A DNA stretch of 64,000 nucleotides. It comes from Pyrenophora tritici-repentis (lineage: Eukaryota; Ascomycota; Dothideomycetes; Pleosporales; Pleosporaceae). The notes under the pieces were generated by a model. That model made no database searches and was not told the DNA's origin. It worked only from the letters and a program-made list of their open reading frames with translations. The stretch is from positions 992,001 through 1,056,000 of the forward strand of contig NC_089393.1 in NCBI RefSeq assembly GCF_003171515.1. The letters are read 5' to 3'. The position numbers were made by a program, and so were the translations under genes. Of the stretch, positions 7,255 to 62,765 are shown in pieces. Numbering within the stretch: the first letter of the stretch is position 1; the number at the start of each line of letters is the position of its first letter.

Positions 7255-7409
7255 GGCCTGATGGTCTAGTGGTGTAAGTAGCGTCCAACGCCTCGCTCTC
7301 CGCCCATATCTAACAACCCCCCCAGATGATTGTCGCTTCGGGTTATCTTTACCTGGATACAGTGTATCTGTTCTGTGACAGGCCCCGGGTTCGAATCCCG
7401 GTCAGGCCC
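7255..7409 (+). tRNA. tRNA-Pro (anticodon CGG) with two introns
   Basis: The cloverleaf is complete once two insertions are removed. Acceptor arm GGCCTGA (7255-7261) pairs perfectly with TCAGGCC (7402-7408), discriminator C at 7409. The anticodon stem GTCGC (7332-7336) pairs with GTGAC (7375-7379, one G-U). The loop is TTCGGG plus T7374, anticodon CGG at 7339-7341. The T arm is CCGGG-TTCGAAT-CCCGG (7385-7401). A box TGGTCTAGTGG and B box GGTTCGAATCC are intact. A 31-nt insertion (7343-7373) sits at the canonical 37/38 position recognised by the tRNA splicing endonuclease. A second, 52-nt insertion (7274-7325) lies in the D-loop and looks like an mRNA intron; it is described separately. The joined tRNA is 72 nt. 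It reads CCG codons. If the D-loop insertion cannot be removed, this copy would be non-functional. Confidence 0.85.
7274..7325 (+). other. Spliceosomal-type intron inside the D-loop of tRNA-Pro
   Basis: The 52-nt insert starts GTAAGT, has ATCTAAC as a branch site at about 7308-7314, then a C-rich tract and CCCAG. Size, donor, branch site and branch-to-acceptor spacing all match the protein-gene introns in this window. Its removal joins TAGTGGT to ATGATT, the normal proline tRNA D-arm. Known family context: U6 snRNA of fission yeast and rDNA of some lichen ascomycetes carry mRNA-type introns, but I know of no established tRNA example. That it is spliced is inference. Confidence 0.7.
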
Positions 7410-8592
7410 AACCTTTTTTGGCTCCTATTTTGCCATCCGGCGGAGGTTTGGCTTTCTTTTTTGCTTTCACGCTTTTTGCCAAAAAATTAAGCGAGATCTA
7501 GGTAGTGATGTCGGGTGATATAGACACATGGCGACTACACAAACATGCCGAGCTCTTATAAGGCATAGATCTACTTAGCAGGTTTTTAATACTCTAGACC
7601 TCCTTCTTCTTCTGCTCCTTTTTGCCGAAAAGTCGGGAGAGTGAAGGGAGAATGTAGTAGAAGGCAACCACGACGGGGTAACAGAAGCAACACTCTACCC
7701 GTGTTCTACTCTTCAGCCAGGCCTCGTCCACTCCAAACCTTTCTTCTGATATCTCGACCTTTCTTTTTTGAAGTGCCTGCATTCATTTCGTCAAAACATC
7801 ACCCGGGAAACGGCGGAAGAACCCCCGGCATTGACAGTCTTAGGAAGCAACAACGAACATTCCTTCTCTTACAGTAATCAAGAGTGTAAGAAGAAAGAGC
7901 CGTCGGGACCTCCTTCCTGATCACCCCACCCACCGCAATACTAAGCAAGCACGAATGGGTCAACCGTGAGAAACCATCCAAGTGGCATGTCTGTTGCGCT
8001 GCTATTATGAGGTTTGCCAAAGGGGACGCTGGATTTGGAACATGGCCGTTGTCTTTGTTTGCTACGTTTCCCCGACAGTGCTACTTGTGCCGCACTGTTG
8101 TGTTCGGCCGAGAAACATCCTATCAGCGGGACAGTAGGAGAATTGGCAAGTGTAAAGCAAGGTAGAAACATGGCGTAAAGTCCGTCCAACACTTCCTTTC
8201 AGCTGTCCAAGCCACTCTAGCCACAGCCGACAGCACATGGCTCTTCTCCGTGAACCTTGGCCAAATCAGCCACTATGCAGTAACCGTGGATTGTAGCATG
8301 TGGATCTAGACCCTCTGCTCCCTGGCATCCAAACAAGTCCATGTTCATCACAACCACAAGAGATGAACAAAAATAGTCGATTACGTAAAATCTACTATCG
8401 TCTACAGCAAACGCCCTCAGGCAAGCCTCGGAAACATCGCAAAAACTCCTTTGTGTACTCAAATCCCGGGGTATAAGATGACCCTGCTCTCGCGCATAAA
8501 GCAGTGAAAGTGGTATCTAACATATGAAGCGACAGAAAGTTGATGTAGTCATAAACGCGTAGGAGGATCATAAGGAGAAGAAGCCGAAAATA
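7410..8592. other. Intergenic, 3' of tRNA-Pro and of CRZ1
   Basis: A T-run directly after the tRNA (CCTTTTTTGG, about 7412) is a plausible RNA polymerase III terminator. No coding frame with any family signature; the right end is the CRZ1 3' flank. Confidence 0.5.
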
Positions 8593-37080: not shown

Positions 37081-37168
37081 TCCTCCGTGGCGCAATTGGC
37101 TAGCGCGTCTGACTGTTACAGTGATGTGGCTCATCAGGAGGTTGAAAGTTCGAGCCTTTCCGGGGGAG
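37081..37168 (+). tRNA. tRNA-Asn (anticodon GTT) with 14-nt intron
   Basis: The cloverleaf is complete. TCCTCCG (37081-37087) pairs with CGGGGGA (37161-37167; one G-U), discriminator G. D arm GGCGCAATTGGCTAGCGC; anticodon stem TCTGA/TCAGG; loop CTGTTA, intron, A. Anticodon GTT lies at 37115-37117. The 14-nt intron (37119-37132) is at the canonical 37/38 position. The T arm is GAAAG-TTCGAGC-CTTTC. A T6 run shortly after (about 37177) can terminate polymerase III. It decodes asparagine codons. Confidence 0.92.
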
Positions 37169-62165: not shown

Positions 62166-62765
62166 ATGCCTGAACAAGCAAAGGATTCTATGCTCCAATC
62201 GCTCAGAAACTGGGGAGGTACGTTCATCCATGTCACTTCCCAACATTGAAGGCTGTTACATACTTCCCTACGCTCACGTGCCTCACTTTGCGCATCGATC
62301 GATACATGTATACAATGACACAACTGATAGTCCACCAGAAAACTCTGTACCCCCAACTCTCCTCGCCACTCTCATCACCGCTCAACATGCCCGTCCCTTC
62401 CAGGTCTTCCCCATGATGTTCCCACCCGTCCTGCTCTTCTCATCCTACCTGAACCTGAGCAACTACAAGACGGATTCTGCTGGGATAACAGCGGCCTGGA
62501 GTGGGTTGTACGCATTACTTGCCATGCGCAGAAGACAGGTATGTTCTCGAAACCTCTTTGCAACGCTCTTTGCTTCTTCCATCTTGGTTGCATCAAGAAC
62601 CATCACATTGTTCTGTACCTAACAGCAAGCCAGGGAATCAGGAACAAACTCACTGTTCGCGGTGTTGTCAGAGGAAGCTCGCTCGCACTTTGTGCTGTTA
62701 ACGTGGTAGGCTGTGGGTTGGCCTACACGTTTGGCAAGCGGGAAAAGGAAGAGAAGAAAGTGTAG
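62166..62765 (+). CDS. Small integral membrane protein, possibly AIM19-like
   Basis: Three exons (62166-62217, 62339-62538, 62634-62765) with introns of 121 and 95 nt give 127 residues. The first acceptor (CACCAG, 62338) is chosen because it keeps frame from SLRNWGE into NSVPPTLLATLITAQHARPF; the second intron has a clear ACCTAAC branch. Hydrophobic segments are VPPTLLATLITA, FPMMFPPVLLFSSYLNL, ITAAWSGLYALLAM and SLALCAVNVVGCGLAYTFG, so three or four membrane helices, ending in a charged REKEEKK tail. The LLFSSYLNLSNYKTDSAGITAAWSGLY block looks strongly conserved. It reminds me of fungal Aim19-type mitochondrial proteins, but this is from memory and weak. Function unknown. Confidence 0.65.

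Follow-up and report, generated by a model that had tools for sequence, protein, structure and literature searches.

How can a tRNA gene accommodate, besides the intron expected next to its anticodon, a second intron built like those of protein-coding genes? The question is raised by a tRNA-Pro(CGG) gene at positions 7255–7409 on the forward strand of a 64,000-nucleotide stretch of Pyrenophora tritici-repentis DNA, called here the window, which corresponds to C4:992001-1056000 in a genome of 40.9 Mb and 41 contigs. Protein comparisons put the fungus near or inside Pleosporaceae: for a ubiquitin ligase E4 of the window, the matches are an unnamed protein (94%), Pyrenophora seminiperda (87%), and then many Alternaria proteins (81–86%), and for the ribonucleotide reductase, a cluster bearing the name of Bipolaris maydis (94%). 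An earlier note on this DNA described a proline tRNA with two insertions of different kinds, one of 52 nt in the D-loop and the other an ordinary 37/38 intron, and direct reading together with ARAGORN shows this description to be correct to the base. Exon 1 (7255–7273) comprises the 5′ strand of the acceptor stem, the 5′ strand of the D-stem, and the D-loop up to position 20, after which the 52-nt mRNA-type intron occupies 7274–7325 at position 20/21. Exon 2 (7326–7342) supplies the remaining D-arm, the 5′ strand of the anticodon stem, the anticodon CGG (7339–7341), and G37; it is followed by a canonical 31-nt 37/38 intron (7343–7373; i(37,31) in ARAGORN), presumably a tRNA-endonuclease substrate, and by exon 3 (7374–7409), with the 3′ strand of the anticodon stem, the variable loop, the T-arm, and the 3′ strand of the acceptor. 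The signals that the note had claimed for the 52-nt insert can all be read: the 5′ splice site GTAAGT (7274–7279), the branch-point motif CTAAC (7310–7314) within ATCTAAC, and the 3′ splice site CAG (7323–7325), where the intron ends in CCCCAG and so carries the terminal CCCAG of the note. The 37/38 intron has neither GT-AG ends nor CTAAY.

Excision of the insert does restore a proline tRNA: ARAGORN returns a false “tRNA-Stop(tta)” from the unspliced gene and recognizes tRNA-Pro(cgg), its remaining intron being 31 nt long, only after 7274–7325 have been removed. With its default setting without introns, ARAGORN finds zero tRNAs in the window, and the Rfam scan of the window at the gathering threshold misses the Pro(CGG) gene. 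The sole window tRNA at that threshold, at 37081–37168 (+), is Asn-like (GTT by eye) and has a short canonical intron but no mRNA-type intron. Of 400,000 random stretches of 50–70 nt from the window, 1 opens with GTRNG, closes with AG, and has CTAAY where a branch point would lie, whereas the boundaries of the Pro(CGG) intron are set in advance by the cloverleaf.

One simple explanation would be that an intron-like sequence was inserted into a Pro(CGG) gene that is now a pseudogene. In keeping with this, the unspliced gene is missed or misread by both ARAGORN and Rfam, CCG could be read by tRNA-Pro(TGG) through wobble, and the gene is single-copy: a genome BLAST with the whole gene, intron included, gave only the self-match, its T-arm occurs once in the genome at one mismatch or fewer, and the check for other Pro(CGG) genes that had been proposed found none, leaving the intron-bearing copy as one of one. 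Exon 1 has the same sequence as the beginning of Pro(TGG)-1, with C4:999255-999273 aligning at 100% to the Pro(TGG) portion of a query. Against a dead copy, the other exon features are all intact. They include the A box TGGTCTAGTGG (7262–7272), which stops just 5′ of the mRNA-type intron, and the B box GGTTCGAATCC (7388–7398), both recognized by their consensus; a T6 run at 7414–7419 is the presumed Pol III terminator.

The fate of this explanation depends on whether the gene stands alone. It does not: pattern and similarity searches of the genome found the same kind of intron in 18 further genes, bringing the total to at least 21 mRNA-type introns, housed in at least 19 nuclear tRNA genes that represent 11 isoacceptors and are spread over eight contigs (C1, C2, C3, C4, C6, C7, C8, and C9). 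These genes are Pro(CGG) (one), Pro(TGG) (two, with two such introns each), His(GTG) (three), Ala(CGC) (two), Ala(AGC) (two), Gly(GCC) (three), Leu(AAG) (two), Leu(TAG) (one), Leu(TAA) (one), Asp(GTC) (one), and Lys(CTT) (one). The first of the further genes were reached via the Pro D-arm pattern and the others via other D-arm patterns and short reads, with genes read among the matches listed and some listed places left unread. Another 37 nuclear tRNA genes were read, and all are without an mRNA-type intron; they include Pro(AGG) (three), Thr (five), initiator Met (three), Phe (three), Ser (three), Asp (three), and Gly(TCC) (two), and no such intron was found in the one to five genes sampled for each of Thr, initiator Met, Phe, Ser, Val, Tyr, Arg, and Asn. 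Three loci (L118–L120) that ARAGORN calls Tyr are read here as Phe(GAA). The sample is non-random, as Rfam more readily picks up genes that are intact, with 63 of 1172 candidates scored, so that 19/56 is no estimate of frequency. PMC3538342 reports 129 tRNA genes for P. tritici-repentis. Seven yeast tRNAs used as genome queries gave no match.

When unspliced, these 19 genes resist recognition: ARAGORN makes no call for 15 and a wrong call for 3, and reads the remaining one as Lys(ctt) with a 92-nt intron. After splicing in silico, a tRNA is called in 19/19, with isotype and anticodon agreeing with the assignment in 17. The two others are the Pro(TGG) genes, in which ARAGORN sets the canonical intron differently and so arrives at Pro(ggg) and Ser(tga). 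An assignment of two genes to Arg(TCG) was dropped in favour of Ala(CGC), on which the ARAGORN call Ala(cgc), the acceptor pair G3:U70, and the loop agree.

The counts leave out one truncated Leu(TAG) fragment and SINE-like tRNA heads. Nineteen Rfam tRNA matches among those listed have an equal score of 46.1 bits and a length of 84 nt (L069 and L088 are examples, L076 and L092 a variant), with a common 3′ flank in those that were read; they are probably a tRNA-derived SINE family, and a SINE family with a tRNA-Ser head has been reported in this species in passages of PMC3538342. A repeated B-box-like site occurs in two pairs (L070/L071 and L082/L083), each exactly 5.5 kb apart, which are possibly the ends of LTR-type retrotransposons rather than tRNA genes. 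On the mitochondrial-looking contig C41 of the assembly (G000:C41, 183 kb), equal-scoring tRNA matches lie in opposite orientation (e.g., 376–448 + and 62342–62414 −), perhaps reflecting a large inverted duplication or an assembly overlap.

The grammar of the introns is uniform. All 21 have GT..AG ends; the 5′ splice site is GTRNGY in 20 and GTAAGA in 1; and the branch motif CTAAC or CTAAT is present in 21/21, its last base lying 9–18 nt from the intron end (9–13 nt in 20, 18 nt in 1). Their length is 50–68 nt (mean 55.7, median 55), and that of 21 predicted protein-gene introns is 44–88 nt (median 54), which bears out the view that the 52-nt insert has the size of a protein-gene intron; length alone is an independent comparison because the protein set was picked with CTAAY required. 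This set consists of introns predicted to link coding frames, taken from 303 kb in which overlapping loci count more than once, and a reversed-sequence control gave one match; one of its members, inside the coding sequence of ribonucleotide reductase (RNR), is false, and the median without it is 54.5 nt. A homology-defined RNR intron has 49 nt, the branch motif CTGAC, and the end CAG. As a control, the 16 canonical introns in the same 19 genes (ARAGORN boundaries; 8–36 nt) comprise 0 with GT-AG and 0 with CTAAY, and none of the 21 mRNA-type introns lies at 37/38.

Another possibility is that these are ectopic tRNA introns cut by the endonuclease at a bulge-helix-bulge, as proposed for Cyanidioschyzon, with GT..AG arising by chance or convergence. 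Ectopic introns do sit at 20/21 and 53/54 in archaea, and a red alga has them at 53/54, according to PMC4090602 and PMC9602550. However, such a coincidence would have to account for GT-AG and CTAAY in 21/21 mRNA-type introns as against 0/16 canonical ones. Moreover, the central helix of a bulge-helix-bulge averages 1.6 of 4 pairs compared with about 1.5 at random and reaches 4/4 in only 1 of 21, in a crude and weak test where three canonical controls themselves score 3 or less. Endonuclease-cut introns are therefore highly improbable. A group I or group II self-splicing intron was rejected, as no such family was found in the window by Rfam at the gathering threshold and 50–68 nt is too short. 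As for an assembly or sequencing artefact, no evidence in its support was found, and nineteen genes on eight contigs, with differing intron sequences and a common grammar, leave it next to no likelihood. The 52-nt insert is very probably spliceosomal, a U2-type intron that interrupts a working nuclear tRNA gene and belongs to a set of at least 21 in this genome.

An important question is whether the genes that carry these introns function. A query with the mature His(GTG) sequence found three copies, all split at the same site. Both Pro(TGG) copies found, one via the mature query and the second via a D-arm pattern, are intron-bearing, and so are all copies found of Ala(CGC) (2/2), Leu(TAA) (1/1), and Leu(TAG) (1/1, plus the truncated fragment). 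Similarity and pattern searches, which detect close sequences and could let a strongly diverged copy escape from a census that is incomplete, found no intron-free copy of His(GTG), Pro(TGG), Pro(CGG), Ala(CGC), Leu(TAA), or Leu(TAG). Histidine codons and UUA have, by the logic of the genetic code, no substitute decoder. Since all the His(GTG) and Leu(TAA) copies found bear the intron, at least those tRNAs must presumably be spliced, and genes with mRNA-type introns, as far as their sequences tell, cannot all be dead.

The pattern of conservation points the same way, with introns diverged and exons conserved. Mature exons are identical within the paralogues of His(GTG) (three), Ala(CGC) (two), Ala(AGC) (two), and Leu(AAG) (two); in the same paralogues, the bodies of the mRNA-type introns diverge, as do the canonical introns where present, and the splice signals are kept. 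Like the introns themselves and the uniformity of their signals, this contrast between exons and introns and the presence of the intron in all copies found of six isoacceptors are read directly from the DNA. The acceptor stems of the Pro(TGG) pair, GGCCTGA/TCAGGCC and GGCTCAA/TTGAGCC, differ by three paired changes (by eye), brought together across two mRNA-type introns; Pro(TGG)-2 has an altered D-loop G and could be decaying. Of the two fates that the note had considered for Pro(CGG), processing by the spliceosome and death of the copy, the former is strongly supported and the latter has become very unlikely, given that the intron class fills all the His(GTG) and Leu(TAA) genes found.

In the cloverleaf, numbered by eye, the mRNA-type introns occupy eight sites: 10/11 in both Ala(CGC) genes; 20/21 in Pro(CGG); 34/35, inside the anticodon, in both Pro(TGG) genes; 52/53 in Leu(TAA) and Lys(CTT); 53/54 in both Ala(AGC) genes; 54/55 in both Pro(TGG) genes, both Leu(AAG) genes, and Leu(TAG); 57/58 in the three Gly(GCC) genes and Asp(GTC); and 58/59 in the three His(GTG) genes. 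The T-arm holds 16 of the 21. This diversity of sites suggests repeated intron gain. Copies that lack the mRNA-type intron exist at other loci for Gly(GCC) (3/6), Ala(AGC) (2/4), Leu(AAG) (2/4, one of them as an unbroken BLAST match only), and Lys(CTT) (4/5, one of them as an Rfam match only), and these copies mark unoccupied sites. In Gly(GCC), the canonical introns have 8, 9, and 16 nt in the copies with an mRNA-type intron (L059, L112, and L113) and 24, 24, and 37 nt in those without (L057, L110, and L111); the shorter length might reflect a trade-off or chance.

As to where the introns came from, near-identical bodies, looked for as a sign of introners or introner-like elements, were not found: 3 of 210 intron pairs have a similarity of z > 4, and each of the three joins copies of a single isoacceptor (the Ala(AGC) pair, His 1/3, and His 2/3). 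Between different isoacceptors, the highest value, z 3.6, is that of Gly-3/Asp, which have the stretch TCCATTCGATTC in common, and the bodies are otherwise little alike. The introns may have originated by reverse splicing or from an introner-like element. A scan for two T-loop splice junctions in viral contigs met 22 contigs, 0 of them with a tRNA-intron context. The branch motif of the His(GTG) introns (L042, L043, and L048) lies between the arms of an inverted repeat, AGACAT/ATGTCT, which all three retain; the repeat is part of the minimum-energy fold in two, and no His intron folds better than its shuffles.

Which polymerase makes the transcript? The note's statement that the A and B boxes are intact is true of Pro(CGG) but not of the class, as in the 18 other genes the internal promoter is interrupted by an intron, at the A box in Ala(CGC) and at the B box elsewhere. 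This might be taken to mean that the introns are spliceosomal but are removed from Pol II read-through transcripts, out of which the tRNA is then cut, and capped Pol II transcripts are the usual substrate of the spliceosome. Yet a run of at least four T starts 3–36 nt past the gene end in 19/19 genes, and in 18/19 a stretch of at least five T begins no farther than 40 nt past the gene, compared with 3.3% of random window positions. Some of the introns hold surrogates of the B box. In fission yeast, moreover, the introns of the Pol III-made U6 RNA are known to be spliced. Pol II read-through is consequently a very unlikely route, and transcription of the intron-bearing tRNA genes by Pol III is inferred here from boxes and terminators. 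TTTT occurs in 1 of the 21 mRNA-type tRNA introns, when shuffling predicts 6.2, but this depletion was discarded as proof of Pol III, since protein-gene introns have TTTT no more often (1/21). Downstream of 15/19 genes, GC comes immediately after the first stretch of at least five T, possibly a lineage-specific terminator context. CATCAA is found within 45 nt upstream of 10/19 genes, a raw count in which 9/19 had less than 45 nt of upstream sequence; it might mark the Pol III start site or act as an upstream element.

How might a split B box be replaced? Where the intron lies at 52/53 or 53/54, its 3′ splice site together with the exon behind it rebuilds a near-perfect B box (GGTTCGAACCC, GGTTCGACCCC, and AGTTCGATTCC), and at 58/59, GGTTCGA is left whole on the 5′ side. 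Restoration at these three sites is due to the site, as any AG-ending intron there scores alike. When the T-arm introns are grouped by junction, a grouping made after looking, TTCGA lies inside 5 of the 9 without a B box kept or restored at the junction (0.28 expected from shuffling) and inside 0 of the 7 with one. An intron-borne TTCGA may maintain TFIIIC binding, which is a lead only; the internal TTCGA could instead be left over from a duplicated T-arm, which would look alike. In B-box score, T-arm introns rank above 20 protein-gene introns (p 0.002), but no excess was found in comparison with the five other tRNA introns (p 0.39), and the grouping by junction is the comparison relied on here.

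Fission yeast and other fungi are known to have spliceosomal introns in their U6 snRNA genes. Those introns are, like the present ones, short and mRNA-type, with GT..AG and a branch motif in a Pol III transcript; the difference is that here the host is a tRNA, with many genes and positions involved and two splicing systems apparently acting per transcript. The U6 gene of P. tritici-repentis itself (L123, C2:1204140-1204700) is intact and intron-free. A second, truncated U6 copy lies about 0.3 kb away on the opposite strand, and L124, L125, and L126 are listed with L123; diverged U6-like pieces occur on C10. Spliceosomal introns are likewise known in ascomycete rDNA, and reportedly figure in a title of 1993; they too are short, mRNA-type, and located in a structural RNA of filamentous ascomycetes, but in a Pol I transcript.

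Among tRNA introns, the closest parallels are ectopic ones. Nuclear tRNAs of Cyanidioschyzon merolae contain such introns in the D-, anticodon-, and T-arms, and several may occupy one tRNA (at 12/13, 37/38, and 53/54), as described in passages of PMC9602550, PMC3978253, and PMC4090602. The D- and T-arm introns supposedly leave before the anticodon intron, by another system (PMC9602550, in part). As far as these passages go, the C. merolae introns are thought to be recognized by the tRNA endonuclease through the bulge-helix-bulge, whereas those described here have GT-AG, CTAAY, and 50–68 nt. The nucleomorph of Guillardia theta similarly has insertions in the D- and T-arms of eukaryotic tRNA genes, but these non-canonical introns are given as 3–24 nt in a passage of PMC4090602, far below spliceosomal size. 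Canonical 37/38 introns co-occur with the mRNA-type ones in 16 of the 19 genes and differ from them in lacking GT-AG and a branch motif and in having 8–36 nt. A search of open-access full text, with preprints and most subscription journals outside its reach, turned up no paper describing tRNA genes with spliceosomal introns; tRNA splicing is described as spliceosome-independent in the relevant part of a 2026 review (PMC13149111), and the stem “spliceosom” does not occur in the available text of a 2014 review of tRNA introns (PMC4090602). The intron class is known; the host RNA, a tRNA, and its consequences are new.

A maturation path may be proposed on the basis of these features. Pol III would transcribe the tRNA gene up to the T-run, as suggested by the T-runs, the A and B boxes, and the B-box-like surrogates. 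The spliceosome would then recognize GTRNGY, CTAAY, and AG in the pre-tRNA and join the exons, to judge from the signals and their conservation, and this joining would restore the D-loop, the T-loop, or the anticodon loop. RNase P, the tRNA endonuclease, and the ligase would act next on the restored fold, with removal of the canonical 37/38 intron if present. Spliceosomal removal and the order of these steps are both deduced from sequence: the spliceosome is expected to act first because the mRNA-type introns break loops that are read by RNase P, export factors, and the tRNA endonuclease, and in Pro(TGG) the location of an intron inside the anticodon leads one to expect the spliceosomal step before that of the endonuclease.

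If this is true, two splicing systems meet on one short Pol III transcript, and the spliceosome requires neither Pol II nor long flanking exons. Such genes would offer a natural system for ordering the actions of the spliceosome, RNase P, and the tRNA endonuclease, and would show how a split B box is replaced; they would also mean that, in genomes of this kind, essential tRNA genes escape the standard tRNA finders. Gain and loss can be traced directly, since for Gly, Ala, Leu(AAG), and Lys this genome has copies with the mRNA-type intron as well as copies lacking it. For His, an essential tRNA, genome searches found no other source, which suggests that the cell needs its mRNA splicing machinery in order to have working tRNAs. 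Translation in the lineage of this fungus is likely, then, to depend on the spliceosome twice, as the tRNAs for His, Leu(UAA), Leu(UAG), Pro(UGG), Pro(CGG), and Ala(CGC) would require splicing of a Pol III pre-tRNA; these introns would constitute a third class of tRNA intron, with a maturation route not described before, and would split promoters while carrying, in part, a replacement B box.
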